Shown piece after piece: positions 44,136-60,420 of a DNA stretch of 64,000 bases (positions are counted from its first letter, which is position 1; every line of letters begins with the position of its first letter). Source of the DNA: Bacteroidota bacterium (lineage in GTDB: Bacteria > Bacteroidota > Bacteroidia > 2-12-FULL-35-15); contig JAOQAE010000004.1 of assembly GCA_025963725.1 (NCBI GenBank), positions 679,616 to 743,615 of the forward strand, in the 5' to 3' direction. The notes beneath the pieces are model-generated. The model was not told the origin of the DNA. It worked only from the letters and a program-made list of their open reading frames with translations, and did no database searches. A program made the position numbers and the translations under genes.

Positions 44136-47100
44136 TTACTGTATAATGATCTTTTGATTCAGTGATATGTCGTCTACCTGCGCATTCACAAAGTAAATGC
44201 CGCCGGTAAAGCTTCCGTCGCTATTGAGGTTGATCAGCTGATCACCTTCAATATTGCTTAATGCTTTCGACCATACCATTTTTCCATGAACGTCGTAGAT
44301 CTGCACCGTTACCTGGTGAGGGCCTTCCGTCAATCCTTCCAGGGCCAGGCTGAATCCTGTGCTTCCGGATGGGTTCGGGAATACAACCAGCCTTGAATCA
44401 TTCATTTCCGTTGCGCTGCCGTCTTCAAAGCCGCGGTTGATGAACGACAGTGTTGGCATTAATGCCGTATTGATGGTGATCGTACAGGTGTTCGTGTTCG
44501 TTCCGACTGCGCCGCCGACCTTTGCATTTACCCTTACGGTATATGTAACGCCGTTTGCAAGTCCCGGGAAGCTGTTCTTCGTGATGGAAGTGCTGTTTGC
44601 GCCTCTCATGCGTGTTACATTGTAGCCGCTTGCGTTGCTGATGTTCCACTCATAATCGGTGGCCCCTGTAACTGCTGTGCAGGTAAGGTTACCCGACAGG
44701 TTCATCGACTGGTTGCACTGGCTGGCGATGAGCTGTGTTGCCGGTGAAGGCCCCATCGTGATCACGCATACCGGCCCGAAATTAGCCCAGTTGCCATCGA
44801 TCTTAGCCCTGATCCTCACGTTGTAGGACTGATTGAACTGCAACCCTACGATGTTTGTTTTCGTGATGAACTGTGATGATGAACCGCGTGTGATCGTGAA
44901 TGAATACCCTAATGAGGCATTGGTGAATTCCCATTCATAATCCTGTGCGCTGGTAACAGGGTTACAGTTAAATGTTCCGTTAAGGTCAGCGATCGTTTGT
45001 CCGCACTGGCTGGAAACCATCTGTGTAAGAGGTAAGGCCGGTGAGATGGTTATTGTGCACATAGTGCTGAAAGCGCCCCATACTCCGGCAACTTTCACCC
45101 TGATCCTTACATTGTAAGTGGTCCCGTACTGAAGTCCCGGGATGGATGTTCTCGGGATCAGCTGTGAGGAAGTTCCGCGTCTTGTTATGGTAGAATAACC
45201 CAATGCCGCATTTGTGAATTCCCATTCATAATCCTGCGCTCCTGTAACAGGCACGGCTACGAATGATCCTGTCATATCCGCGAGGGTGGCACCGCATTGT
45301 GTTGCAGAAAGCTGCGTGTTGGGAACGGTACAGATCCTGGTCACAGCGGTGATCCTTTGTGCTGTGCATCCGCCTGCATCCGTTACGGTAACCGTATAGC
45401 TGCCCTGCGATAATCCGCTCACATCTTCGGTCGTTGCTCCGTTGCTCCATAAGTAAGTATATGCCGGAGTTCCGCCTGCTACTGTAAGGTTGATGGCGCC
45501 ATCGTTATCCATGCAAGTCGATTGCGTCATGGTGCTGCTTAAGCTCAGTGGAGCAGAAGGCTGTGTGATGGAGAATGTTCTTGTTGCCGTACACCCGTTC
45601 GCATCGGTAATGGTGCAGGTATATGTTCCCGGTGAAAGCGAAGAGGCTGTTGCTGCAGTTCCGCCTGAAGGAGCCCATGCATAAGTATATGATGGTGTTC
45701 CGCCGCTTACCGTCACAGATGCCGTTCCGTTGCTTCCGCCGAAGCAGGATATGTTGGACTGCGATGTTGTTGCAGCGATCGCAGAAGGCTCTGTGATGGA
45801 GAATGTGTTAATTGATGAACATCCGTTCCCATCAGTGATGGTGCAGGTGTATGATCCTGCCGGCAGGCTGCCTGCTGTTGCGGAAGTCCCGCCTGACGGT
45901 GCCCACGAGTAGGTGTACGATGGTGTTCCGCCTGTAGCGGAAACCGTTGCGCTTCCGTTGCTTCCGCCGTTGCAGGAAATGTTGGCCTGTGACGTTGTTA
46001 CAGTAATTGCAGTCGGTTCAGTAATAGTTGTGCTTGCTGTCGCGCTGCATCCGTTGTCATCAGTGATCGTACAGGTGTATGTTCCCGGGGCAAGCGAAGA
46101 TGCTGTAGCAGCGGTTCCGCCCGAAGGGGACCATGCGAAGGTAAACGGTGATGTTCCTCCTGAAGGTGCTGCTGTTGCTGATCCGTTGTCAGCGCCGTTG
46201 CAGGATACGTTTGTAGTTGAGCTGATGGAAGCGCTAACCCCGGCAGAGCTGTTCACAACAGCTGTTGTTGTGCTGCTGCATCCGTTTGCATCGGTGATGG
46301 TGCATGTATATGTTCCTGCAGAAAGCCCTGTTGCAGTTGCAGCAGTTCCGCCCGAAGGTGCCCATGAATAAGTATAGGAAGGTGTTCCTCCCCCTGCTGT
46401 TGCCGTTGCCGTACCGTTGCCGCTTCCACAAGCTGCAGGAGTGGAAGAGGAGGCCGCTGTGATCGCAGAAGGCTCTGTAATGCTAACTGTTTTTGTGGTG
46501 CTGCATCCGTTTGCATCGGTGATCGTGCAGGTGTATGTTCCTGCAGAAAGCCCTGTTGCCGTTGTAGCAGTTCCGCCTGCCGGTGACCACGAGTAAGTGT
46601 AAGATGGAGTTCCGCCTGTTGCAGAAATTGTTGCGCTTCCGTCGTTTCCGCCATTGCAGGAGATATTGGTTTGCGATGTTACTGCAGCAGTAATGGCAGG
46701 AGGCTGTGTGAGCGTCACTGTTTTTGTAATGGAGCATCCGTTCGCATCGGTGATGGTGCAGGTGTAAGATCCTGCGGAAAGTCCTGTTGCAGCTGCCGCC
46801 GTTCCGCCTGATGGCGACCATGAATAAGCGTATGAAGGTGTTCCACCTGTTGCCGACACTGTTGCGCTTCCATCGTTTCCGCCATTGCAGGAGATATTGG
46901 TTTGAGATGTTACCGTAGCAGCGATGGCAGACGGCTCTGCAATAGTAGCGGTTGCCGTTGCGCTGCATCCGTTATTGTCGGTTACTGTGCAGGTGTACGT
47001 TCCAGGTGCGAGTGAAGCTGCGGTTGCCGCTGTTCCGCCCGATGGCGCCCATGCGTACATGAACGGGCTGCTGCCGCCTGTTGGTGCTGCTGTTGCAGAT

Positions 47101-50100
47101 CCGTCGTCGGCCCCGTTGCAGGAAACGTTTGAAGAAGAAGTAATGGAAGCCGTGATGCCGCCGGTGCTGTTTACAGCAACAGTGGTGCTGCTGCTGCATC
47201 CGTTTGCGTCTGTAACTGTGCAGGTATAAGTTCCTGCGAGCAGTGAGGATGCCGTAGCGCCTGTTCCACCCGACGGTGCCCATGAATAAGTGTAAGAAGG
47301 TGTGCCGCCGCTTGCTGCCGCAGTTGCAGTTCCGTTATTATTCCCGCATGTTGCAGGAGTGGAAGAGGAAGTAGCAGTAATTGCGGATGGTTCCGTGATA
47401 GTTACTGTTTTTGTTATGGAGCATCCGTTAGCATCGGTAATGGTACAGGTATATGTTCCTGCCGAAAGCGTTGTTGCCGCTGCGGCAGTTCCGCCTGTAG
47501 GCGACCACGAGTAAGTATAAGATGGTGTTCCGCCTGTTGCAGAAATGGTTGCGCTTCCATCACTTCCTCCATTGCAGGAGATGTTGGTTTGAGAAGTTAC
47601 CGAAGCAGTGATTGCAGGAGACTGTGTTACAGTTGTATTTACAGTTCCCGTACATCCGTTCACATCGGTAATGATCACGGTGTAGGTTCCTGCGGTTAAG
47701 CCTGTTCTGTCTTCTGTGGTGATTCCCGAGCCCCAGTTAAAGGTGTATCCCGGTGTTCCGCCTAAAGGCGTTAAGTTGATCGCACCGTTTGATCCGCCGA
47801 AGCAGGAAACGTTGGTAACAACCGTTGATCCCGATACAGGAGTTGGTGGCTGGGTTACAGTTGTATTTACAGTTCCGGTACAACCGTTAGCATCTGTAAC
47901 AATTACAGTGTATGTTCCTGCTGTTAATCCCGTTCTGTCTTCTGTAGTGATTCCGGAGCCCCAGTTAAAGGTATAAGGGCCGGTTCCTCCTGAAGGCGTT
48001 AAGTTGATCGTTCCGTTAGATCCGCCGAAGCAGGAAACGTTTGTAACAACTGTTGTTCCGGATACAGGAGTTGGTGGCTGTGTAACAGTCATTGTCACCG
48101 TTCCTGTACAACCGTTCGCATCAGTGATCTGAACACTGAAAGTTCCTGCAGTAAGCCCCGTGCGGTCTTCCGTTGTAGGGCCCGACGGCAGCCAGTTAAA
48201 GGTATATCCCGGTGTTCCGCCGCTTGGCGTTAAGTTAACAGCACCGTTTGATCCGCCGAAGCAGGAAACGTTGGTAACAACTGTTGTTCCGGATACCGGG
48301 GAGGTTGGTTGTGTAACGGTGGTATTTACTGTTCCGGTACATCCGTTCACATCGGTGATCTGGACCGTGTATGTTCCTGCAACAAGTCCTGTGCGGTCTT
48401 CTGTTGTAGGCCCTGAAGGCAGCCAGTTAAACGTGTATGGGCTTGTTCCGCCATTTGGTGTTAAGTTGATGGCTCCGTTAGATCCGCCGAAACAGGAAAC
48501 ATTAGTAACAACGGTTGATCCTGACACAGGAGTTGGTGGTTGTGTAACAGTCATTGTCACTGTTCCTGTACAACCGTTCATATCAGTGATCTGAACACTG
48601 AAGGTTCCGGCAGTAAGCCCGGTGCGGTCTTCCGTTGTAGGGCCCGACGGCAGCCAGTTAAAGGTATATCCGCCACTTCCGCCATTTGGCGTTAAGTTGA
48701 CAGCACCGTTGGATCCGCCGAAGCAGGAAACGTTTGTAACAACGGTTGTTCCGGATACCGGAGAGGTTGGTTGTGTAACGGTGGTATTTACTGTTCCGGT
48801 ACATCCGTTAGCATCTGTAACAACTACAGTGTATGTTCCGGCAACGAGTCCTGTACGGTCTTCCGTTGTAGGCCCCGAAGGCAGCCAGTTAAACGTGTAT
48901 GGGCTTGTCCCCCCGTTCGGTGTTAAGTTGATCGCTCCGTTAGAACCGCCGAAGCAGGAAACGTTGAATGCAACTGTTGTTCCTGAAACAGGCGATGTTG
49001 GTTGTGTAACAGTAGTATTCACTGTGCTTGTACATCCGTTCACATCGGTGATCTGAACGGTGTATGTTCCTGCAACAAGGCCGGTACGGTCTTCTGTTGT
49101 AGGTCCTGCCGGCAGCCAGTTAAACGTATAAGGGCTTGATCCGCCGTTTGGTGTTAAGTTGATGGCTCCGTTTGATCCGCCGAAGCAGGAAACGTTGGTG
49201 GCCACCGTTGTTCCTGAAACAGGCGTTGCCGGCTGGGTAACAGTGGCATTTACTGTTCCTGTACATCCGTTCACATCTGTGATCTGAACAGTGTATGTTC
49301 CCTGAGTAAGCCCGGTACGATCTTCCGATGTGGGGCCTGATGGCAGCCAGTTAAAGGTATATCCGCCGCTTCCGCCATTCGGTGATAAGTTGATCGTTCC
49401 GTTTGATCCGCCGAAGCAGGAAACATTGGTCACCACTGTTGTTCCTGAAACAGGGGCTGTGGGTTGTGTGACCGCGTAGGACCTGGTGAGCACACAGCCT
49501 TTGATGTCGGTAACGGTCACCGTATAGTTTCCGGCAGAAAGACTTGTTGCCGAAGCTGCGGTTCCGCCGGATGGTGCCCAGGCATAGGTGTATGTGGGTG
49601 TTCCGCCTGAAACACTCACGCTTGCGCTTCCATTAGAACCTCCAAAGCATGACACATTGGAAAAAGAGCTGGTGGCTACAAGTGCCGGGGGCTGTGTAAT
49701 ACTTAATGTGCGTGTTGCAGTACATGAATTTGCATCGGTAACGGTTACTGTATAAACCGCTGCCGTTAAGCCGGTCACGCTGGTTGTTCCATCGCCGGAA
49801 GGATTTCCCGGTGTCCAGTTGTAGCTCAGCGTGCCGGTACCTCCTGTTGCACTTACCTGCGCGGCTCCGTTGTTGCCTCCGAAGCAGGATACGTTTGTTT
49901 GGGATACGGTATTAATAATAATTGCCGGGGGCTGTGTGATAAAGAATGTTTTGGTAATGCTGGTGCTTACTGCATCTGTAATGGTTACTGTATAGTTGGT
50001 TGCGCAAAGTGAAGAGGCTGTAGCGCCGCTTCCTCCCGCAGGAGACCAGCTGTAGGTATAGGGAGCTGTTCCACCGGAAGCAACCACTGTTCCTGATCCG

Positions 50101-51641
50101 GTACATACCCCGTTACAGGTAAGGTTCACCTGTGATTGGGTTGCAGTAAGCGGTGGCGCTATCATTTTCACTACAAAAAGATCGGTGCTGTTGGCATTGG
50201 TTGTAAGTGCCGCGAGCGGAGAGAAGGTAAGGTTGGTGGTAGCCAGTCCGGCGCCCCAGATGTCGCCGGAAGAATTAGCTGTGACCGCATTGATCGGGTT
50301 ATCGGTAGCAGTAGCAGGATCTGCCGCTCCTATCCTTGCCCATACGGCAAGGCCATTGCTTGCATTTACATTCAGCAGCAACGGATCTCCACCGTTCGAC
50401 CTTACGTTTGTGACCTGTACGCTGGAAGCTGAAGGGAAAGTGCAGGTACCTGCAGCAACAACACCTCCGATAATAATGCCTCCCGAGCTGTTGGAGCAAA
50501 TGCCCCTTGCCCGGTCGGACCCTATTCCGGATCCACCGGCGGATTTTGCCCAGGTAAAAGTATTGGTAGAAGGGTTGTAACGCGAATAGAACATATCATC
50601 CACGCCACCTGCGCCTGTTGAGTTGTTCAGTGTTGTGCTTCCCAGTGTAAAGGAAGGGCTGTTATAGTAACCGCAGAAGAACACATCGCCCGTGGCCGCG
50701 TCATAGCATGCTGCAAGCCCGTCTTCATTGCTGCTTCCGCCACCGCCTGCTGCTGTACCGCTGACAAATGTGCCTGTAGCGGCATCCAGCTCTAAAAGTA
50801 CGATATCATTTCCTGTACCTGCTGAAGCAGGAAAGCTTACGCCTCCATAGGTAAGCATCCCTCCGCCGGTTGCACCGCCCACTACTACCACTTCATTGAG
50901 TGAAGGAGAATAGCAGATCCCGCTTCCTACTCCATTGTCATTACCAGTACCGCCGCCGTTTTTCGCCCACAGGAAAGTTCCGGAAGGATCGATCTTTGTA
51001 ACAAACAGGTCGCTTCCCGTCCCTCCGGTAGGACTTACAGAGGATCCTCCGAACGTTGCCGGTACTGAAAAAAAGCTTCCGGTAACATATACATTCCCGG
51101 AAGGGTCCGTGCAGATGGCCTGCGGTGAATCGGTGCTGCTTCCTCCCATGGTTCTTACCCAGGTGGTTGCCCCTGAAGCAGCATCGAGCTTAAGCACATA
51201 ACCGTCCTGCCCCCCGGCAGAAGTATAAGCTGTAGGGGAAACACCCACGGTCATTGAAGTGCTGAAAGTTCCTGTTACATACACGGATGATCCGTTTGTT
51301 ACGATCCCCATGCCATGGTCATTCGTCGTTCCTCCCAGGCGAAGCGCCCACTGGAGCGCACCTGAAGAGTTGTATTTAATAACAACCCCGTCGAAGGCTC
51401 CTGCTGATGTAAGGCTGGTTCCGCCGAAAACAGCAGTTCCGCTGTTGATGGTACCTGTAACATATACGTTGCCGGCAGCATCCATGCAGGTTGCATTACA
51501 CCGGTCGCCGGTGGCGCCGCCGCCGCTGGCAACAGCGGTCCATGTTTGAGAATTGGCCGATACCGAAGCAAGAATAAGTGTTAAGGCAAGAGCAAAAGAG
51601 TTGCAGTTCCGTTTGAAGGAATGGAGTAAGGAAAAAATCAT
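44136..51641 (-). CDS. Giant SprB-repeat surface protein with SBBP propeller and T9SS sorting domain (copy B)
   Basis: A 2501-residue paralogue of the protein at 36551-43918. The signal peptide, propeller (about 32-490) and first SprB units are almost the same as in copy A. About 21 SprB repeats follow (about 495-2105). Repeats 4-11 belong to the 77-residue CFGGSNG family shared with copy A, and repeats 12-20 to a CNGGNDGSATVSATGG family that copy A lacks. Three related modules of about 95 residues come next (2107-2400: DYEWEFTNAALGYS, TYNVRIRVKVAGVWG), resembling fibronectin-type units. A type A sorting domain (LVVFPNPSGSTGFSLAL to KIIIQ) closes the protein. The 3' third is therefore different in origin from copy A while the 5' part is shared. 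A surface adhesin role is the likely function. Confidence 0.93.
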   Translation of the reverse strand: MIFSLLHSFKRNCNSFALALTLILASVSANSQTWTAVASGGGATGDRCNATCMDAAGNVYVTGTINSGTAVFGGTSLTSAGAFDGVVIKYNSSGALQWALRLGGTTNDHGMGIVTNGSSVYVTGTFSTSMTVGVSPTAYTSAGGQDGYVLKLDAASGATTWVRTMGGSSTDSPQAICTDPSGNVYVTGSFFSVPATFGGSSVSPTGGTGSDLFVTKIDPSGTFLWAKNGGGTGNDNGVGSGICYSPSLNEVVVVGGATGGGMLTYGGVSFPASAGTGNDIVLLELDAATGTFVSGTAAGGGGSSNEDGLAACYDAATGDVFFCGYYNSPSFTLGSTTLNNSTGAGGVDDMFYSRYNPSTNTFTWAKSAGGSGIGSDRARGICSNSSGGIIIGGVVAAGTCTFPSASSVQVTNVRSNGGDPLLLNVNASNGLAVWARIGAADPATATDNPINAVTANSSGDIWGAGLATTNLTFSPLAALTTNANSTDLFVVKMIAPPLTATQSQVNLTCNGVCTGSGTVVASGGTAPYTYSWSPAGGSGATASSLCATNYTVTITDAVSTSITKTFFITQPPAIIINTVSQTNVSCFGGNNGAAQVSATGGTGTLSYNWTPGNPSGDGTTSVTGLTAAVYTVTVTDANSCTATRTLSITQPPALVATSSFSNVSCFGGSNGSASVSVSGGTPTYTYAWAPSGGTAASATSLSAGNYTVTVTDIKGCVLTRSYAVTQPTAPVSGTTVVTNVSCFGGSNGTINLSPNGGSGGYTFNWLPSGPTSEDRTGLTQGTYTVQITDVNGCTGTVNATVTQPATPVSGTTVATNVSCFGGSNGAINLTPNGGSSPYTFNWLPAGPTTEDRTGLVAGTYTVQITDVNGCTSTVNTTVTQPTSPVSGTTVAFNVSCFGGSNGAINLTPNGGTSPYTFNWLPSGPTTEDRTGLVAGTYTVVVTDANGCTGTVNTTVTQPTSPVSGTTVVTNVSCFGGSNGAVNLTPNGGSGGYTFNWLPSGPTTEDRTGLTAGTFSVQITDMNGCTGTVTMTVTQPPTPVSGSTVVTNVSCFGGSNGAINLTPNGGTSPYTFNWLPSGPTTEDRTGLVAGTYTVQITDVNGCTGTVNTTVTQPTSPVSGTTVVTNVSCFGGSNGAVNLTPSGGTPGYTFNWLPSGPTTEDRTGLTAGTFSVQITDANGCTGTVTMTVTQPPTPVSGTTVVTNVSCFGGSNGTINLTPSGGTGPYTFNWGSGITTEDRTGLTAGTYTVIVTDANGCTGTVNTTVTQPPTPVSGSTVVTNVSCFGGSNGAINLTPLGGTPGYTFNWGSGITTEDRTGLTAGTYTVIITDVNGCTGTVNTTVTQSPAITASVTSQTNISCNGGSDGSATISATGGTPSYTYSWSPTGGTAAAATTLSAGTYTCTITDANGCSITKTVTITEPSAITATSSSTPATCGNNNGTATAAASGGTPSYTYSWAPSGGTGATASSLLAGTYTCTVTDANGCSSSTTVAVNSTGGITASITSSSNVSCNGADDGSATAAPTGGSSPFMYAWAPSGGTAATAASLAPGTYTCTVTDNNGCSATATATIAEPSAIAATVTSQTNISCNGGNDGSATVSATGGTPSYAYSWSPSGGTAAAATGLSAGSYTCTITDANGCSITKTVTLTQPPAITAAVTSQTNISCNGGNDGSATISATGGTPSYTYSWSPAGGTATTATGLSAGTYTCTITDANGCSTTKTVSITEPSAITAASSSTPAACGSGNGTATATAGGGTPSYTYSWAPSGGTAATATGLSAGTYTCTITDANGCSSTTTAVVNSSAGVSASISSTTNVSCNGADNGSATAAPSGGTSPFTFAWSPSGGTAATASSLAPGTYTCTITDDNGCSATASTTITEPTAITVTTSQANISCNGGSNGSATVSATGGTPSYTYSWAPSGGTSATAGSLPAGSYTCTITDGNGCSSINTFSITEPSAIAATTSQSNISCFGGSNGTASVTVSGGTPSYTYAWAPSGGTAATASSLSPGTYTCTITDANGCTATRTFSITQPSAPLSLSSTMTQSTCMDNDGAINLTVAGGTPAYTYLWSNGATTEDVSGLSQGSYTVTVTDAGGCTAQRITAVTRICTVPNTQLSATQCGATLADMTGSFVAVPVTGAQDYEWEFTNAALGYSTITRRGTSSQLIPRTSIPGLQYGTTYNVRIRVKVAGVWGAFSTMCTITISPALPLTQMVSSQCGQTIADLNGTFNCNPVTSAQDYEWEFTNASLGYSFTITRGSSSQFITKTNIVGLQFNQSYNVRIRAKIDGNWANFGPVCVITMGPSPATQLIASQCNQSMNLSGNLTCTAVTGATDYEWNISNASGYNVTRMRGANSTSITKNSFPGLANGVTYTVRVNAKVGGAVGTNTNTCTITINTALMPTLSFINRGFEDGSATEMNDSRLVVFPNPSGSTGFSLALEGLTEGPHQVTVQIYDVHGKMVWSKALSNIEGDQLINLNSDGSFTGGIYFVNAQVDDISLNQKIIIQ
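45530..47630 (-). repeat. Tandem repeat block (SprB subfamily 3) specific to copy B
   Basis: Nine degenerate units encoding CNGGNDGSATVSATGG or CGSGNGTATATAGGG openings and TYSWSPSGGTAATATGLSAG middles. A higher-order order is visible: an NISCNGG unit, a CGNNNG unit and an NVSCNGAD unit recur in the same sequence (repeats 12-14, then 16-18), suggesting that a three-repeat block was duplicated as one piece. Confidence 0.8.
47630..49470 (-). repeat. Tandem repeat block (SprB subfamily 1) in copy B
   Basis: Eight units of about 228-234 bp encoding the same VSGTTVVTNVSCFGGSNG repeats as the 38950-41735 block, and nearly identical to them at DNA level. Confidence 0.88.
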
Positions 51642-51799: not shown

Positions 51800-52303
51800 T
51801 TAATCGCGGAGCCATTTTTTCATTATAGGAAATTGTTCTTTCGTGGTCATTCCCATCCAGGTGATCAGCGGGATTCCTATAAATACATTTTTGCTGTAAT
51901 TGTCAAGGAGCCAGAGGCTGTCGCCCTTGTATCCGTTGGGGTGAAAAACAACTGCGGGTGAAATGCCAAGCTTAACAGCAGCGGCATAGCTCCAGAGCAT
52001 TGCGGCCATTTCTTCGCCTTCCTTTTCAGTCATGCCCCCGGTTACATTTCCATGAAGTAATTTTCGTTCAGCCGCGGTGGTAACGGCAATGTGGCCGGCT
52101 TCATGCAGGAGGTCGCCGGGATATAATAATTTTTTTCTGTCGAAAATGAGCGTCCCGTTCTGAATGTCGAGGCCGGGAACAAAAGTAACATCGCCTGTAA
52201 GGCCTTCCTGTACATCGATCCCAACGCTGCTGATGAACTCAACCAGCCGGTTAATGAGTGCGTCTTTTTCAGTGGTGGTAGTTTCGCTTAATGCCATGTT
52301 CAT
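51800..52303 (-). CDS. Uncharacterised protein with an HExxH (zincin) motif
   Basis: A 167-residue protein, with no signal peptide and no clear membrane segment. LLHEAGHIAV places His67-Glu68-x-x-His71, the zinc-binding and catalytic motif of gluzincin/metzincin-like peptidases, in a helix after a beta-strand (GTLIFDRKKLLYPGD). A second region, MTEKEGEEMAAMLWSYAAA near residues 91-109, has an acidic helix that could supply the third zinc ligand (Glu in EGEE). The remainder (GISPAVVFHPNGYKGDSLW) is of unknown fold. I do not recognise a named family. It is transcribed away from the 52517 gene and toward the giant proteins, and appears to be a single-gene unit. The N-terminus may be the ATG at 52303 or the next Met two codons on. 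Confidence 0.7.
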   Translation of the reverse strand: MNMALSETTTTEKDALINRLVEFISSVGIDVQEGLTGDVTFVPGLDIQNGTLIFDRKKLLYPGDLLHEAGHIAVTTAAERKLLHGNVTGGMTEKEGEEMAAMLWSYAAAVKLGISPAVVFHPNGYKGDSLWLLDNYSKNVFIGIPLITWMGMTTKEQFPIMKKWLRD

Positions 52304-53663: not shown

Positions 53664-54656
53664 ATGGCAGATACCACATTCCTACCGGCCTTTTTTCAGA
53701 ATAATGCAGCAGCGTCTTTTGCGAACAGCGCGGACCTGAATGCATTTTTCATCAAGAAGAAAGGTACAGATTTCATCACATGGTTCAATGCTGCCCTTGC
53801 GCAGAAGAATTACTGGGGCGCTGCAGGCGGCGGACAAAGCGTTAAGATGGCAACCGATGCGGATGCGCTCAGCAGGTTCAACCAGTTATGGGACCAGATC
53901 CCCGTACTGTTTGGTACGCCTTCTATCAACCTGCTGCAGTTCATTTCGCTGATGAGCATTGTGAACAATGAAACCGGCGGTTCCGTAAAGCCGATCACCG
54001 AAAGGGTTGGAAATGCTGCAAACCCGGCACTTGCATACGCATTCAATAAGATCCCCGGAATTAAAAGGTCGTACAATACCCTCGATACGAATATTACCGC
54101 CTATGATCTTTTTCACAACGCGGATTACATTGCGCAGTTTGGAAAATTACCGATGGGCGCGCAATTGGTAAATACAACGAACGTCGCTTTCAAAGGCGAG
54201 ATATGGCCTGCAGGGGTCAATACAGCGACTGATCCGGCTGTGAACGGATTTGTTATTGAAGCCGATTTCTTTAAGTTCAGGGGCCGCGGATTCATCCAGA
54301 CAACGAACAGGGGGAACTACAAAGCGCTTATTAATTTTGTGCTTGCATACAAGGGAACAAATCCGCTTGTGCTGCAATACCAGAAGAAATGGGCAGGAAG
54401 CGCCGCCGATAAGATCGCGACCATTTCAACGAATGCCGACTGGGATGCTCTTTTCCAGAATTCACAGATGGCCATTCCTGCCGCAGCGATCTCGGTGCAT
54501 AATAAATTATCGGGAGCATATCTTGGTAAGATCACCATGACAGCTGGGGCAGAGGCAAGCGTAAAAAAAATGGGATTTGCGATCGCCGGTGGCGGCGCAT
54601 CAACATACGCATCGTTGTTCCTGAACAGGGTGGTGCAGATCGCCAACGCAATTTAA
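53664..54656 (+). CDS. GH19/lysozyme-like lytic enzyme without signal peptide
   Basis: A 330-residue protein. SIVNNETGGSVKPI has the first catalytic glutamate (Glu103) in the position of the HETxGG motif of GH19 chitinases and phage-type endolysins. FRGRGFIQTTNRGNYKALI near 210-228 matches the GRGxxQLTxxxNY motif of that family. The N-terminal 90 residues are a helical region with no close match. There is no signal peptide at the chosen ATG (53664); an extension to 53625 does not add one. The likely substrate is peptidoglycan or a chitin-like polymer. It is co-transcribed with the membrane protein at 52517-53647 and converges, 1 nt apart, with the formyltransferase at 54658. Confidence 0.78.
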   Translation: MADTTFLPAFFQNNAAASFANSADLNAFFIKKKGTDFITWFNAALAQKNYWGAAGGGQSVKMATDADALSRFNQLWDQIPVLFGTPSINLLQFISLMSIVNNETGGSVKPITERVGNAANPALAYAFNKIPGIKRSYNTLDTNITAYDLFHNADYIAQFGKLPMGAQLVNTTNVAFKGEIWPAGVNTATDPAVNGFVIEADFFKFRGRGFIQTTNRGNYKALINFVLAYKGTNPLVLQYQKKWAGSAADKIATISTNADWDALFQNSQMAIPAAAISVHNKLSGAYLGKITMTAGAEASVKKMGFAIAGGGASTYASLFLNRVVQIANAI

Positions 54657-54657
54657 C

Positions 54658-55584
54658 TCAGCTTCCGAGGCGGTTGCCTTTTTTGAACCCGAATAATGCA
54701 AGGCGGTGCCCGGGATAAAAGCCTTCTTCACAATACATCACATCCACGCGGATCGTCCTGTTATCACAACAGGCAACAATAAGCCCTTTGCTTTCATCCA
54801 GTTCCAGTATGGTTCCCGACAGTGTGTTTTCGGGCACCTTCACTGCTGATAAGGAAACGTCGGTAATACCGAACGTCCATCCGTTGCCTTTTGTGCCCGC
54901 ACCTTTATTCCAGGGGTTGCAGGCTTTCACCAAAGCTCTTACTTCCACCATTGGCATGCTGTTCCAGTCGATGAACAGATCTGCCGGCTTAGGCCTTGCG
55001 TACCATTTCGCTTTGCTGTGATCCTGCGGCTCCGGCTTTAAGCTGTTAGTCATCAGCCCCTGGATAAGCTTCCCGCTCAGTTCAACACCTGCATAGGCAA
55101 GCTGTGTGCAGAGCATTCCGAATGTGGTTTCAGGTGAGAGCGACAGCTGCTGGCTGAGAAGAAGGTCGCCTTCATCAAAGCTTTCCGTCATTTTGTGTAC
55201 GCTTACACCCGCTGTGGCGGCCCTGTTCCGGATCATCCAGAAAAGCGGGTTGCTTCCTCTCCATTCGGGAAGAGGGGCATAATGAAAGTTGATGAAGCCG
55301 TGTTTGGGAATTGAAAGGCATTCGGCCGGTATACGCCACGGGAATGTTTTTACAAGCACTACATCAGGCTGGTGCTGCATGAGCCAGGCGCTAAGGTTGG
55401 CGCTGAAATTTTCTTTTGTGAATGGCTGCACGGGCACTTTTCTGCCTGCACACACCTGCCGGATGAGCAGCTGAACTTCGTTTGCACGGTCCGTTATGCC
55501 AACGGCAGCCAGCAGCCCGCTTTGTGCAAGCTGGCTGAGAGCGGGAAGCGCAAGGCGGTCGTTGCAGAGAATTGCGATGCGCAT
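54658..55584 (-). CDS. Methionyl-tRNA formyltransferase-like formyltransferase
   Basis: A 308-residue protein of the 10-formyl-tetrahydrofolate transferase family (Fmt, ArnA N-domain, PurN). The catalytic trio is present: Asn99 and His101 in INFHYAPLPEWRGSNP, and the aspartate of the SFDEGDLLL motif (Asp140, with Asp137 nearby). The C-terminal 100 residues have the OB-fold character of Fmt (VRALVKACNPWNKGAG, then SGTILELDESKGLIVAC). It is not the housekeeping Fmt by context, since it lies in an operon with tail-collar proteins and has no def gene beside it. Its substrate could be an amino sugar or an amine on a protein. Its start overlaps the stop of the substrate-binding-like gene (TGATG), so translation is probably coupled. 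Confidence 0.85.
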   Translation of the reverse strand: MRIAILCNDRLALPALSQLAQSGLLAAVGITDRANEVQLLIRQVCAGRKVPVQPFTKENFSANLSAWLMQHQPDVVLVKTFPWRIPAECLSIPKHGFINFHYAPLPEWRGSNPLFWMIRNRAATAGVSVHKMTESFDEGDLLLSQQLSLSPETTFGMLCTQLAYAGVELSGKLIQGLMTNSLKPEPQDHSKAKWYARPKPADLFIDWNSMPMVEVRALVKACNPWNKGAGTKGNGWTFGITDVSLSAVKVPENTLSGTILELDESKGLIVACCDNRTIRVDVMYCEEGFYPGHRLALFGFKKGNRLGS

Positions 55585-56714
55585 CAGATGCAGAGGTAAT
55601 TATTTTTCCAGTCGGAAGTGCTTTCCAGCCTTGTTGCTATGAGGGAGAGGTGCAATCCAGGATCGGCCGGCATCTGTTCCCCAAGGACCAATGCGCATTT
55701 TCCGTTTTCGCCTTCTGTGATAGCGGCATTGTATAAAGACCCGTATGAATAATGCGTGTCGGGGTGAAATGTTTGTTTGCCTCTCGGGCTTTCGAATGAC
55801 CAGCTTTTTAATGCATCCGGGGCTATGGTTTCACTTTCAAGAAGATGAGCGGTAACAATACCTGCTTCCCATCCCAGTAAATGAAAAATGGTGGCAGCCT
55901 TTTTCTTTTCTGTCTTTATTGTTTCAATGAATAACTGCTGCGCATCATTCTGAATGTGAGATGACCATGGAATAACGGTGTTGAATGTTCCGCCCGGGAA
56001 TTCCATTTTATGAAGCAGCTGTTCCTCTGCCATGAAGGAAGAGCAATAAAAAGGGAGTGAAACTGCTTTTGCCCCGTTGTGCTTGAGTGCGCTCATAAAA
56101 AGCTCAGCGAGATACGTGCTGAAGGAAGCGCATACGGCTTCTGCGCCTGAAGATTCCAGCAGGTCCATGTACTGGCTGATGTTAAATTCGGAGATCTTAA
56201 AGGGGCTTACATAGTTAGCACATACAATTCCATTGTTTTCCTCCACAGCCTTAGCAACAGCCCAGGGTGCGCGATAGCCGCCATCATAAAAAGAGGTCGC
56301 CTTTAAGATCCTTTTTCCGCCTTCTGCCGCTTTCCATCCTGAGATATATGCGGCTTCCATTCCCTGCAGGGAAATGTGGAAAGCGTAGGGATGCTGCATG
56401 CTTTCAGGATGCTGTACGCCGGCATCAAGAAAAATAAAAGGCCGCTGAGTGGTGTTTGACAATGAATAAAGAGGTTCTGCATTCCGCGGATTGGAGTATG
56501 CTATGATAAGCTGTACATCATCCTGAAGAATAAGTTTTTCTGCTTTTGAATAATTAAGGGCTGCATCATCACCGTAGCCTATGTTCTCTGAAATGAACTG
56601 TATATTATCTTTTCCGGCCTGCTTAAAATAAGAACGAAGGCCATCAATTATATCAAAGCCCATAGAAGGGTAATCGGTAGAGCGGGGAAGGAGGACACCT
56701 ATGCGAAACGACAT
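55584..56714 (-). CDS. Periplasmic-binding-protein-fold protein lacking a signal peptide
   Basis: A 376-residue protein of the type I substrate-binding (Leu/Ile/Val-binding, AmiC-like) fold. IGVLLPRSTDYPSMGFDIID opens the first lobe, ISENIGYGDDAALNYSKAEKLI follows, and RPFIFLDAGVQ near 98 and YAFHISLQGMEAAYISGWKAA near 118 match the hinge-side segments. GGTFNTVIPWSS near 240 and GWEAGIVTAHLLES near 275 close the second lobe. From the chosen ATG (56714) the protein starts MSFRIGVLL with no export signal; upstream codons to 56774 do not give a convincing one either. It therefore seems cytoplasmic, which suggests a ligand sensor rather than a transport component. No permease or ATPase genes are adjacent. 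It is in the operon with three tail-collar genes. Confidence 0.75.
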   Translation of the reverse strand: MSFRIGVLLPRSTDYPSMGFDIIDGLRSYFKQAGKDNIQFISENIGYGDDAALNYSKAEKLILQDDVQLIIAYSNPRNAEPLYSLSNTTQRPFIFLDAGVQHPESMQHPYAFHISLQGMEAAYISGWKAAEGGKRILKATSFYDGGYRAPWAVAKAVEENNGIVCANYVSPFKISEFNISQYMDLLESSGAEAVCASFSTYLAELFMSALKHNGAKAVSLPFYCSSFMAEEQLLHKMEFPGGTFNTVIPWSSHIQNDAQQLFIETIKTEKKKAATIFHLLGWEAGIVTAHLLESETIAPDALKSWSFESPRGKQTFHPDTHYSYGSLYNAAITEGENGKCALVLGEQMPADPGLHLSLIATRLESTSDWKNNYLCI

Positions 56715-56793
56715 AAAATTTTTTTTGGTAACAAAAATGAAAAGAAAATGGGAACATAGTGTTCCCATTTTCAAAAAAAGTAAAAATTAAAAA

Positions 56794-57336
56794 TTAATTG
56801 CGTGCAGGATAAACACCATACTGGCAAATAATGTAATTGAGCCCCAATACAGGGTTCTGGGTACTGAATGGCACATTTGAGCCTACCGGCGACATCGTGA
56901 TATTACCGGTAAAAGGCTGCATATTCGTGCTTGGAGCACCTGCATAGGCAAGTCCGCCATTGGTAGTGGTTGCAAAAACTCCTCCACCCGGATTAGGTGA
57001 GCTGCCGGTGGCCGAGCATTTTTGATCCGCAGTGATCGATACCGGGTGAATGTGAGCCGGCATTTGAGCCGCACTTAAAAGAGCTTGTGTCGAACCACCC
57101 ACTTGTCCAAGTGTATATGGCGACAGGCCCTGGCCTGATCCTGCACCTACAACGGTACGTCCGCGCAGGTCCGGCAGTGCAAAAGTAGTAGTTCCATTTC
57201 CTCCGTAAACTGTACCGAGAATAGAAAATAAAGCAGTGTTGCTTGCAATGTTAATGACCTGGCCCTGGCAGAATGCCCAGTTCTTTGGTGCAAAGTTGCC
57301 TGCAAAGCAAGTTGTATATCCGATAACTCCTTCCAT
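56794..57336 (-). CDS. Phage-tail-collar-domain (Mdp-type) protein 3 of 3
   Basis: A 180-residue protein of the tail collar domain family (microcystin-dependent-protein type). The N-terminal domain has CFAGNFAPKNWAFCQGQ, then ALFSILGTVYGGNGTTTF and LPDLRGRTVVGAGSGQG. A variable middle part with PAHIHP (a possible metal-binding HxH) follows. The C-terminus is NPVLGLNYIICQYGVYPARN. There is no signal peptide. Phage tail fibres use this fold to attach to receptors, but there is no phage structural gene here. It shares the same layout and terminal PxRN with the two upstream genes, so the three form a duplicated set. It lies 79 nt upstream of the binding-protein-like gene, in the same operon. Confidence 0.9.
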   Translation of the reverse strand: MEGVIGYTTCFAGNFAPKNWAFCQGQVINIASNTALFSILGTVYGGNGTTTFALPDLRGRTVVGAGSGQGLSPYTLGQVGGSTQALLSAAQMPAHIHPVSITADQKCSATGSSPNPGGGVFATTTNGGLAYAGAPSTNMQPFTGNITMSPVGSNVPFSTQNPVLGLNYIICQYGVYPARN

Positions 57337-57373: not shown

Positions 57374-57928
57374 TTAGTTGCGTGAAGGAAAAATTCCTTC
57401 AACGGCAATGATGTAATTCATTGCAAGGTATGGTGAAATAATGTTGATGGGCATGCTGCCACCTGCAATTGTTGAAGCGGATACACAGCTTGAAGAAAGG
57501 AGCGAATCCCCGGAATCGCTGGCTGCATAGTTACTGCTGCCTGTTGCTGCTGCAGGAAATGCACCGTTCGGATTATCGGTTGTTCCTGCCGCATTCAGTG
57601 CAGGAGGATTCCCGCTAAAAGTCAATAACCCGTGGTTGTGAACCGGCATTTGGGCTGACGTAACCGATATATTCTCTGTTCCGCTCATTTGTCCGAGTAC
57701 GTAATTGGAAAGTCCCGGGCCTTGTCCCTGGCTGTTAGCGATCCTTCCGCGCATGTCGGGAAGCGCAAAGGTTGTTTGTCCGTCGCCACCGTAGGTAGTT
57801 CCGATTAATGCGAAAAGTGCATCGTATTCTGCGATAGCCAGGAGCTGTCCCTGGCAGAACATCCAGCTGCGGGGCGCGAAGTTACCGGCAAATATGGTAA
57901 TGTTAGCGAGATATGGTTCAATAAACAT
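57374..57928 (-). CDS. Phage-tail-collar-domain (Mdp-type) protein 2 of 3
   Basis: A 184-residue member of the same family: FAGNFAPRSWMFCQGQLL near residue 12, ALFALIGTTYGGDGQTTF near 35, and LPDMRGRIANSQGQGPG near 54. The middle portion has MPVHNHGLLTFSGNPPA, with the HxH motif in the same place. The end is NYIIAVEGIFPSRN. It differs from the neighbours mainly in the serine- and glycine-rich variable loop (about 110-150: AATGSSNYAASDSGDS). It is 37 nt upstream of gene 3 and 50 nt downstream of gene 1. The role is probably binding or structural; secretion would need a route other than a signal peptide. Confidence 0.9.
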   Translation of the reverse strand: MFIEPYLANITIFAGNFAPRSWMFCQGQLLAIAEYDALFALIGTTYGGDGQTTFALPDMRGRIANSQGQGPGLSNYVLGQMSGTENISVTSAQMPVHNHGLLTFSGNPPALNAAGTTDNPNGAFPAAATGSSNYAASDSGDSLLSSSCVSASTIAGGSMPINIISPYLAMNYIIAVEGIFPSRN

Positions 57929-57978: not shown

Positions 57979-58518
57979 TTAGTTGCGGCTCGGGAATAGC
58001 CCGTACATGCAGATAATGTAATTAAGCGTCAGGTAAGGCTCAAGTATAGAAACAGGCTGAGAACCGCCGGCAGCTCCGATGGTAACCGAATACGCAGGAG
58101 CTGTCATTGTAGCATTTGCACCTGCAGTTGCATACATGCCCGGGAATATCGAGGGAGTCTCATTTGCAGGATCCGCAGAATCAGCTGCAGTATTGTCGGC
58201 CTGGAGCCTGATCGACACAGCTCCGTCGTGAACGTGCGCCGGCATGTTACCGATGTTAAGGATTGTTGCTTCTGTTCCCTGCACCTGTCCGAGCGCAACA
58301 TTCGGGAGTCCGGCTCCCTGGCCCGTGCCTATCGGCGTACGCCCGCGAAGATCAGGTAAGGCGAATGTGTTAATGCCGTTACCACCAAACGTGGTCCCAA
58401 GCAATGAGAATAATGCCTGGTTCTGTGCGATCGGCAATAACTGACCGCTACAGGATGCCCAGTTCTTTGGGGCAAAGTCAGCCCCAAAGCATGTTACTAC
58501 TGCCATTGTTCCTTCCAT
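57979..58518 (-). CDS. Phage-tail-collar-domain (Mdp-type) protein 1 of 3
   Basis: A 179-residue protein, first of the operon. Family blocks: CFGADFAPKNWASCSGQLL near residue 10, ALFSLLGTTFGGNGINTF near 35, and LPDLRGRTPIGTGQGAG near 54. PAHVHDGAVSIRLQ near 94 carries the HxH motif. The C-terminus is YLTLNYIICMYGLFPSRN. A TACATTTG box lies at 58614-58621 on the minus strand, about 96 nt upstream, and could be its promoter. The gene is divergent from the hydroxylase-sulfotransferase fusion at 58741, with 222 bp between start codons. Their shared control region suggests a functional link, which is inference. Confidence 0.9.
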   Translation of the reverse strand: MEGTMAVVTCFGADFAPKNWASCSGQLLPIAQNQALFSLLGTTFGGNGINTFALPDLRGRTPIGTGQGAGLPNVALGQVQGTEATILNIGNMPAHVHDGAVSIRLQADNTAADSADPANETPSIFPGMYATAGANATMTAPAYSVTIGAAGGSQPVSILEPYLTLNYIICMYGLFPSRN

Positions 58519-58613
58519 AAGAAATAAGATTTTTTTGGTTTAGATTCTGTGTAAGAATAGATGGGATATCCGGAGTAGCGAATTCACATTATTCTGAGCG
58601 AAAGGTATAAAAA

Positions 58614-58638
58614 CAAATGTACCTTCAAAATATTTTTG
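58614..58638. promoter_or_regulatory. Candidate divergent promoter elements
   Basis: TACATTTG on the minus strand (58614-58621) and TATTTTTG on the plus strand (58631-58638) both fit TAnnTTTG, facing away from each other toward the tail-collar operon and the fusion gene. No clear -33 TTG was found for either, so the call rests on the -7 boxes alone. Confidence 0.35.
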
Positions 58639-58740
58639 TTATTTAGGGCTTGGAAAGTTATGAACAATTACTTTTTGTATTGCTGAAATCCGTTGATAGC
58701 TGCGGTTTACCAGCCCTTAAAAATTTATGCCTTAATAGAA

Positions 58741-60420
58741 ATGAATGATTCCTTTCCACTGCCCATAGAAATTGATGCGCAAAAATTAGCTGCCGATCTT
58801 ACTACCTGCCTCGAGGCACAGTGGAAGGAACACTTTAATACACGCGACTACTCGGGAAGCTGGACTGCCATCGCTTTGCGCTCCCAGTCGGGAAATGCGC
58901 AGGATATATACGCGAACAACTCGGAGCTTCCCTTTGTAAACACACCATTGCTGGAAGAATGCAATTATTTTAAATTTATCCTGGATCAGATCCATTGCGA
59001 AAAAGAAACCGTGCGGCTGTTGCGTCTTCAGCCAGGCAGCGTTATAAAAGAGCATCGCGATCAGGGCTTAGGTTATCGCTTCGGTGAGTTTCGCCTGCAT
59101 ATCCCGATCATAACCGATGCCGCTGTTGAATTTATTGTCGGCGGAAAAAACATCCCGATGAAAAAAGGCGAATGCTGGTATGCCGACTTTGACCTTCCGC
59201 ACAGCGTGAAGAACGACAGTGAGCGTGAGCGCATCCATCTTGTGATCGACGGGAAGCGCAATGAATGGACGGATGAATGGTTCAGGTCTGCAGGATATGA
59301 TTTTGCAGAAGAGAAGGAGCAGCTGCAGCCAAAGTATACCGAGGAGATGATCAATAACATGATCGAAGGGCTGGAAAAGATAAATACGGAAACGTCCCGT
59401 AACATGATCGCGGAGCTGCTCGAACGGAAAAAAAAGATCGCTGAAAGAAAAACGGTGGAGCAGGTTGTTGATCCCTCAAAACGGCCTGTTCCTTCAAAAG
59501 TATTCATGGATAAGAGCGGGCTGCGCTTCCGCTGGACCTACACCGGAACAAAGCGCTTCACAGAGCCGTTCTTCAGCGATACGCTTGCCGTATGCAAAGG
59601 CTTGCCGGAGAACAGGCAGCGTGTCGAAACTCCGGTGGAAGAGCTTTTCCGGCATGCAGAAGCGATCGATGCCATTGAACCATCTGCATTTATTTTTCAT
59701 GTTTCAAGATGCGGTTCCACGCTGCTTTCGCAGATGCTTTCGGAAAGCGAGCGCTGCATTGTGCTTTCCGAGGTGCCGTTACTGGATGATCTGCTCCGGC
59801 TGGATCTCAGCTATCCGGGGATGTTTGATGAAAAGCTTACCGACCGGCTCTTTAAAGCGGCAGTACGGCTGTATGCGCGCCGTTCGGAGAAGCGGGAAAC
59901 ACACCTGTTCATCAAATGCGACAGCTGGCATACGCTGTTCTATGGCCGCATCCGCCGCTGCTTTCCGGCAGTGCCGGTTATTTTATTATACCGCTCAGCA
60001 ATGGAGGTGGCCCGCTCACAGGATAAGATGCGGGGAATGCATGCTGTTCCCGGAGTGCTGCCGGCTTCCATATTCAGACTGGAGGAGAAGGATCTTCCTG
60101 AAATGAGCCAGGAGCTGTACTTTGCGAAAGTGCTGGAAAGTTATTTCAGCGCGTATGAAATGATCCTTGAGAAAGACCGCCGCGCATTTCCACTTAGCTA
60201 TCATGAAGGCGCTGAAGCGATGCTGCAGGTTATTATGAAGCATACGGGCTTTGTGCCGGATGAAAAAGAAATGGCTGCGATCCGGGAGAGGACACGCTAT
60301 CATTCCAAGGACCGGAGCGCGGTTTTTGAAGAACGGCAGGAAGAAAAGCCCGTACCGGAATATATGCGAAAGGCCTGTGAAGCTTTTCAGCGGATGGAAC
60401 ACCAGAGAACCCTGAAATAG
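58741..60420 (+). CDS. Asp/Asn beta-hydroxylase domain fused to a sulfotransferase-type domain
   Basis: A 559-residue two-domain protein. The N-terminal half (about 1-190) is an aspartyl/asparaginyl beta-hydroxylase-type 2-oxoglutarate/Fe(II) domain. EHRDQG gives the iron ligands His105 and Asp107, RLHIPI follows, and DLPHSVKNDSERERIHLVID gives His154 and the 2-oxoglutarate-side Arg. A charged linker with a helical segment (about 200-255) joins it to a P-loop sulfotransferase-like half (about 270-559). That half has FHVSRCGSTLLSQML near 320-333, the phosphosulfate-binding loop, and VILLYRSAMEVARSQ near 411-425. The ATG at 58741 is used; a TTG at 58693 is unlikely. It could hydroxylate and then sulfate a peptide or small molecule. 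The nearby tail-collar proteins are possible targets. Confidence 0.85.
   Translation: MNDSFPLPIEIDAQKLAADLTTCLEAQWKEHFNTRDYSGSWTAIALRSQSGNAQDIYANNSELPFVNTPLLEECNYFKFILDQIHCEKETVRLLRLQPGSVIKEHRDQGLGYRFGEFRLHIPIITDAAVEFIVGGKNIPMKKGECWYADFDLPHSVKNDSERERIHLVIDGKRNEWTDEWFRSAGYDFAEEKEQLQPKYTEEMINNMIEGLEKINTETSRNMIAELLERKKKIAERKTVEQVVDPSKRPVPSKVFMDKSGLRFRWTYTGTKRFTEPFFSDTLAVCKGLPENRQRVETPVEELFRHAEAIDAIEPSAFIFHVSRCGSTLLSQMLSESERCIVLSEVPLLDDLLRLDLSYPGMFDEKLTDRLFKAAVRLYARRSEKRETHLFIKCDSWHTLFYGRIRRCFPAVPVILLYRSAMEVARSQDKMRGMHAVPGVLPASIFRLEEKDLPEMSQELYFAKVLESYFSAYEMILEKDRRAFPLSYHEGAEAMLQVIMKHTGFVPDEKEMAAIRERTRYHSKDRSAVFEERQEEKPVPEYMRKACEAFQRMEHQRTLK

Follow-up and report, generated by a model that had tools for sequence, protein, structure and literature searches.

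The lasso peptide canucin offers a precedent for hydroxylating the terminal residue of a ribosomal peptide: CanE carries out the 2-oxoglutarate-dependent beta-hydroxylation of the C-terminal Asp of the canucin precursor (PMC9266682). The enzyme proposed here would resemble CanE in this respect; a sulfotransferase, the other half of our proposal, is not mentioned in that review (PMC9266682). The catalytic base of sulfotransferases is either His or Glu, and the same source covers the motifs of the tyrosylprotein sulfotransferases, TPSTs (PMC9372746). The window, which is the whole 64,000-nucleotide stretch of Bacteroidota DNA that was analysed, combines both kinds of domain in a single open reading frame (ORF). 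In the following, H denotes the Fe/2-oxoglutarate hydroxylase domain or gene and ST the sulfotransferase domain or gene. The fusion has the following features:

58741–60420, + strand: fused hydroxylase-sulfotransferase ORF, 559 amino acids from ATG
58783–59259, + strand: Asp_Arg_Hydrox domain (PF05118), residues 15–173, Pfam 4.6e-18
59053–59061, + strand: iron ligands H105 and D107 (HRD), invariant in 18/18 rows
59200–59202, + strand: iron ligand H154, invariant in 18/18 rows
59230–59232, + strand: R164, presumed 2-oxoglutarate-binding Arg, invariant in 18/18 rows
59482–60417, + strand: sulfotransferase domain, about residues 248–559, from Pfam, alignment and models
59698–59727, + strand: 5'-PSB-like motif HVSRCGSTLL, residues 320–329, assigned by pattern
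59770–59772, + strand: E344, candidate catalytic base, 21 residues after R323, invariant in 53/53 rows
59992–60018, + strand: 3'-PB-like motif R418...S426, conserved, assigned by pattern

An in-frame TTG precedes the ATG by 48 nt. The original prediction had placed H105, D107, H154 and CGSTLL (residues 324–329) on one polypeptide, and these positions were confirmed. The three iron ligands are invariant in 18/18 H rows and the CGST part of the motif in 53/53 ST rows, which is more than chance would give.

The N-terminal domain is, judged by its sequence, a predicted Fe/2-oxoglutarate hydroxylase with its key residues intact. Its PF05118 match scored 66 bits, above the cut-off of 22.6, and H105, D107, H154 and R164 were unchanged in every row of the hydroxylase alignment; the 2-oxoglutarate-binding role of R164 is presumed from its family. 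The closest solved sequence relative was L-proline cis-4-hydroxylase (cis-P4H; 4p7w, E 1.9e-13), and the modelled domain matched the structures of cis-P4H (4p7w, Z 17.4) and of the Asp/Asn beta-hydroxylase AspH (5jqy, Z 16.7). The fold and the HxD...H...R residues are thus common to H and to these PF05118 enzymes, whereas H differs from them in being fused to, or paired with, an ST and in its substrate, which is probably a protein C-terminus.

The ST assignment of the C-terminal domain is weak by sequence and firm by its predicted structure and genome context. The Sulfotransfer_3 match (residues 316–428; 0.0012, 19.6 bits) fell below the Pfam cut-off of 27, while for three fused relatives the Sulfotransfer profile scored above its cut-off in L062 (28.6) and L088 (27.9) and below it in L137 (26.6). 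Sequence profiles of the C-domain stayed weak, with 12 rows as with 55; 4gox was the best solved match (E 0.02–0.04), and an olefin-synthase ST domain weakly headed the sequence search. When fused, H-only and ST-only rows were pooled in one alignment, the ST-only rows fell on the H domain, and this alignment was discarded. In the ST alignment (alignment position + 235 gives the numbering of the fusion protein), H320, S322–T327, E344, K392, R418 and S426 were invariant in all 53 rows. By analogy, as to both the residue and its spacing, E344 may be the equivalent of the TPST catalytic base. An AlphaFold2 model of the ST domain alone, made from 53 rows, had a pLDDT of 93.8 and a pTM of 0.92. Foldseek placed TPST2 first (8.7e-5; TM about 0.45–0.5), with other P-loop folds following from 3e-3, and VIA-align gave a Z of 14.2 for both STF9 (2z6v, 221 residues) and TPST1 (5wrj, 219 residues), followed by CurM (12.9) and olefin synthase (12.5).

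The modelled ST thus shares with TPST1/2 the same fold (Z 14–15 over about 219 residues), the 5'-PSB-like and 3'-PB-like motifs and a conserved Glu of presumed equivalence. It is about 13–17% identical to them, and its acceptor is probably an aliphatic hydroxyl made by the enzyme itself, not Tyr; the kinship suggested by the model is one of fold resemblance only. The original prediction had read the polypeptide as an enzyme that hydroxylates and then sulfates; this predicted reading is supported by the conserved PAPS-site motifs and by the resemblance of the model to PAP-bound sulfotransferases. A full-length model of the fusion had a pLDDT of 83.3 and a pTM of only 0.60, and does not fix the mutual placement of the active sites.

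A family search of 36 genomes of the genus, including the window's own, revealed a fused copy with 82% identity in one second genome and both halves as adjacent genes in one further genome; neither the fusion nor its halves matched in 33 of the 36. A search by domain order led to the same 36 genomes. At a locus of the same genus (L039, genome G013) the H is 68% identical to that of the window and the ST only 33%, which suggests that the ST partner of L039 has been swapped.

At least 576 ST loci were found, of which the best 80, all in named records, were analysed (L084, L087, L098 and L107 appear also among the class genomes used below). H was present in 66 of the best 80 ST loci: the two genes were same-strand neighbours in 45, and H was fused to ST in three, from Chitinophagaceae UBA1930, a Saprospiraceae MAG and Pedobacter yulinensis. 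In a tree of 66 ST domains the five fused rows require four changes, two of them forced by well supported (starred) branches. Additionally, a Diaphorobacter plasmid (L035, a betaproteobacterium) encodes a 630-amino-acid Asp_Arg_Hydrox plus Sulfotransfer_3 protein with the same domain order as the window's fusion. Its ST part showed no similarity to the ST of the window at the thresholds applied, and its neighbours are IPTL-CTERM and DUF4915/TIGR03032 proteins, with no collar within the fetched stretch. Open frames of 624–701 amino acids also surround H matches in five genomes of the gammaproteobacterial class (G428, G456, G549, G662 and G672). Split, adjacent H and ST genes are therefore the usual form, and fusion recurs. 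The idea of a unique fusion was ruled out by the fused relatives, the Diaphorobacter protein and the tree, and since fusion recurs and a different H–Sulfotransfer_3 fusion exists in a betaproteobacterium, the H–ST architecture is not new in itself. The unusual two-step fusion of the original prediction is hence real, but less unusual than was claimed. Recurrent fusion between partners that are often adjacent is as expected of consecutive steps.

APS kinase makes PAPS. A family that was first met unlabelled, by clustering the neighbours of ST genes, proved to match APS_kinase above the Pfam cut-off (1.4e-33 or better) in 4/4 members tested. It was present in 51 of the best 80 ST loci, with a median gap to ST of 37 nt and with 50 of the 51 copies within 3 kb. 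Of 15 collar loci that lack a neighbouring H or ST, a set that is not a matched control, one held an APS-kinase match (a 661-amino-acid ORF). The presence of this family beside ST genes gives independent genomic support to the C-domain being a sulfotransferase; together with the predicted fold, this linkage speaks against a chance P-loop or a kinase-like C-domain, and that reading was rejected. The window's host genome has one APS kinase, located away from the fusion locus. Near APS kinase and ST in Ferruginibacter-type loci there is also a 133-amino-acid protein that is weakly cytidylyltransferase-like (Pfam 0.0024, below cut-off; L058:9554–9955, L060, L067 and L068).

The genes divergent from the fusion, and the region that separates them from it, are as follows:

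58519–58740, no strand: intergenic region separating the fusion from the divergent collar operon, from coordinates
57979–58518, − strand: collar protein 1, 179 amino acids, ends FPSRN (PF07484, 8.4e-25)
57374–57928, − strand: collar protein 2, 184 amino acids, ends FPSRN (PF07484, 2e-27)
56794–57336, − strand: collar protein 3, 180 amino acids, ends YPARN (PF07484, 4.1e-25)
55584–56774, − strand: Peripla_BP_6 protein, recurrent cluster member (Pfam, neighbour families)
54658–55584, − strand: Fmt-like formyltransferase, recurrent cluster member (Pfam, neighbour families)
51800–52303, − strand: HEAGH-motif protein, 167 amino acids, no Pfam family above its cut-off

The three collars, the Peripla_BP_6 protein and the Fmt-like formyltransferase run divergently from the fusion. 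Several families have versions of this arrangement, and the clusters of three Collimonas genomes combine H and ST with one or two collars. The Peripla_BP_6 protein, which lies between the collars and the formyltransferase, has no evident signal peptide by eye. Neighbour families were assigned by single-sequence searches at 1e-8. The HEAGH-motif family was matched in 24 of the best 80 ST loci and also in H loci, with relatives at L051:10416–10937 and at L054:8319–9512, the latter fused to a hydroxylase. It is possibly a metalloenzyme of the same pathway (a HEXXH enzyme is the subject of the preprint PMC12636437). Other exchangeable members are PhyH (15/80) and a PKHD-type oxygenase (9/80 of the best ST loci). 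The carbamoyltransferase family was matched in four loci that have H and no detected ST (L048, L051, L053 and L054, the assignment being Pfam-checked for L051 only) and in one of the best 80 ST loci (L108). The four H loci suggest that a carbamoyltransferase may provide an alternative cap for the hydroxyl. Lasso-type genes stand beside collars at L040, L034 and L171, where PqqD, Transglut_core3 or lasso-B2-like, and Asn-synthase-like genes occur (L040 holds PqqD, Transglut_core3 and an Asn-synthase-like ORF). Among the window ORFs scanned near the fusion, the PqqD, B2 protease and Asn-synthetase-like cyclase that mark a lasso peptide or RiPP cluster were not seen.

A 330-amino-acid protein encoded at 53664–54656 (+ strand) contains the stretch GRGFIQTTNRGNY, which is reminiscent of GH19-type enzymes, and had no Pfam match at 0.001. 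A phage tail module was rejected, no terminase, capsid or tape-measure family being found by Pfam among the 16 window proteins scanned. Hydroxylase matches in phage records were weak only (three records), and the fusion's peptide patterns had no match in viral contigs. An anti-phage system was likewise rejected, with no PADLOC match.

In the fetched stretches, collars were present in 45 of the best 80 ST loci, 44 of these with H. The remaining 35 had no collar in the stretch, which was shorter than 20 kb in 13 of them; they include 14 of the 15 Flavobacterium loci, nine of which do have H or ST plus H. Co-occurrence of the fusion partners with unrelated pathways only would, by the original prediction, have spoken against it; the neighbours proved to be non-random (APS kinase in 51, H in 66 and collars in 45 of the best 80 loci). 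The class was sampled with 395 genomes: 81 of them, about a fifth, encode collars (PF07484 at E ≤ 1e-6, any match), and 28 match the H profile (E ≤ 1e-6). Collars were found in 24 of the 28 H genomes versus 57 of the 367 without H, absence being judged by profile search (Fisher p=1.5e-14).

Collars adjoining H end ...G[IV][FY]PSRN. The last residue was Asn in 107/114 collars from loci with H, a group that includes four contigs duplicated among sets, versus 15/39 from loci without H. To reduce ascertainment, short collars were taken from the 395-genome set; these represent, among the matches listed, about 56 of the 81 collar genomes, with long collar proteins mostly left out. Twelve of the 134 matches, which lacked a canonical end, were dropped, leaving 122. 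Where H was close (profile E < 1e-70; 17 genomes), all 40 canonical collars ended in Asn (37) or Asp (3), in 17/17 genomes. The 30 genomes without H had 14 Asn, 3 Asp and 47 other ends (17/64 Asn/Asp; p=1.4e-15 versus close H), with at least one Asn/Asp end in 14 of the 30, and the seven genomes with a weaker H had 5 Asn, 2 Asp and 11 other. This division into close and weak was post hoc, having been chosen after the collar ends were seen; the rows of the H profile came from 16 of the 17 close genomes and were picked by similarity to the window protein, not by collars. Before the split, all H genomes pooled gave 45/63 versus 15/71 (p 4.8e-9), and, counted per genome, 22/25 versus 13/32 had one or more Asn ends (p 3e-4); the pooled counts include G014, which is outside the 395. 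The three Asp-ended collars of close-H genomes sit in two of the four carbamoyltransferase loci. Within the Gammaproteobacteria, the sole close-H genome (Collimonas) has an Asn-ended collar, H-less collars of up to 260 amino acids end in Asn in 3/12 cases, and in two weak-H genomes the ends are Ser in one and Asn, Ser, Ser and Gln in the other.

As H belongs to an Asp/Asn-hydroxylase family and a close H was always accompanied by Asn/Asp ends in this sample, we infer that the C-terminal Asn of the collar is hydroxylated and that ST caps it. The divergent tail-collar operon had been named beforehand as a candidate source of the substrate, and the C-terminal correlation strengthens this conjectural link. 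H would place a hydroxyl on the C-terminal Asn of the neighbouring collars, most likely on the beta carbon, and the TPST-shaped, PAPS-dependent ST would sulfate this new hydroxyl. In most relatives the two steps would fall to two neighbouring genes, and in the window to one fused protein. The modification may serve to change the tip of a trimeric fibre acting together with a giant adhesin. Collar-type trimers usually form surface-binding fibre tips, so a charged collar end could tune binding. That the window's protein is such a bifunctional enzyme, acting on the C-terminal Asn of its neighbouring collars, we hold to be nearly an even prospect, with the collar C-terminus as substrate, the carbon attacked, the order of the steps and the purpose all presumptive. 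More tentatively, the clusters may form a new modification system: the C-terminal Asn/Asp of collar fibres would be beta-hydroxylated and then capped with sulfate (in sister clusters with carbamate), a neighbouring APS kinase giving PAPS, and exchangeable tailoring modules would surround a core of collar and giant adhesin.

The two sequential steps could also be real and directed at something other than the collars: the giant adhesin secreted from beside the cluster, a glycan or a small molecule. The collars would then be partners or carriers; this we consider rather unlikely. The best solved sequence match of H, cis-P4H, acts on a free amino acid, and two cluster members, the Peripla_BP_6 protein and the Fmt-like formyltransferase, have the look of small-molecule genes. 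Giant secreted proteins that group loosely by similarity into one cluster were found in 38 of the best 80 ST loci. A haemagglutinin-like giant occurs in each of the three Collimonas loci (presumably filamentous-haemagglutinin-like, judged by the N-terminus), and a giant IPTL-CTERM protein adjoins the Diaphorobacter fusion. Giants were also matched in 4 of the 15 collar loci without H and ST, so they seem tied to collars rather than to H/ST, and modification of an adhesin or small molecule would leave the tracking of the collar's last residue with H unexplained. The window itself encodes two giants (36551–43918 and 44136–51641, both − strand) with nearly identical N-termini, the second carrying SprB repeats and ending in a Por_Secre_tail; giants flank many collar clusters, with L072, L086 and L096 noted among such loci.

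Less likely again is a reading in which nothing is modified at the C-terminus, and collar lineages that accompany H have their conserved terminal Asn only for recognition or assembly. This would fit the Asn ends found without H (14/64), and other, weaker columns also differ between the groups. The last residue nevertheless came first among 282 column/residue tests (2e-12; next 8e-8), ahead by more than four orders of magnitude. Independent pairs, chosen greedily on a tree from which the last five residues had been left out, numbered nine for, none against and two ties (p 0.004), which counts against this reading. Modification also fits the genomes in which the genes are unlinked: H is on another contig than the collars in G098, G133, G203, G274 and G338, and far from them on one contig in G223, and Asn is the last residue of 11/11 canonical collars in these six genomes.

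The best structural matches after STF9 and the TPSTs are the ST domains of the curacin and olefin-synthase enzymes, in which sulfation of a hydroxyl precedes elimination; that the sulfate is a leaving group, activating the beta carbon for elimination or substitution with a dehydro residue, a cross-linked product or a trimmed C-terminus as the outcome, is nonetheless improbable, as the TPSTs match the ST model better and no candidate elimination partner was common to most of the best 80 ST loci.

Hydroxylation and sulfation of the collar C-terminus thus remains our preferred reading, and several observations count against it. Asn ends without a detected H occur in the class and in the Gammaproteobacteria, as counted above, the genomes with a weaker H are mixed, and no collar was present in the stretch fetched for 35 of the best 80 ST loci. 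Giant adhesins accompany many clusters, the three of Collimonas included, the closest solved sequence relative of H is a free-amino-acid enzyme, and the ST falls below its Pfam cut-off. In the literature covered, which lies largely outside subscription journals, no paper joins sulfotransferase, beta-hydroxylase and tail collar, and absence is claimed for that combination only; among the matches listed, no role was met for short clustered collar proteins and nothing on an H–ST–collar system.

The analysis names a one-residue modification, its would-be enzymes and a source of PAPS. If the proposal is true, known protein chemistry would gain the hydroxylation and subsequent sulfation of a protein's C-terminal residue, and the fused enzyme would serve as a compact means of making a hydroxyl and then capping it. 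It would also provide a first handle on the function of collar fibres.
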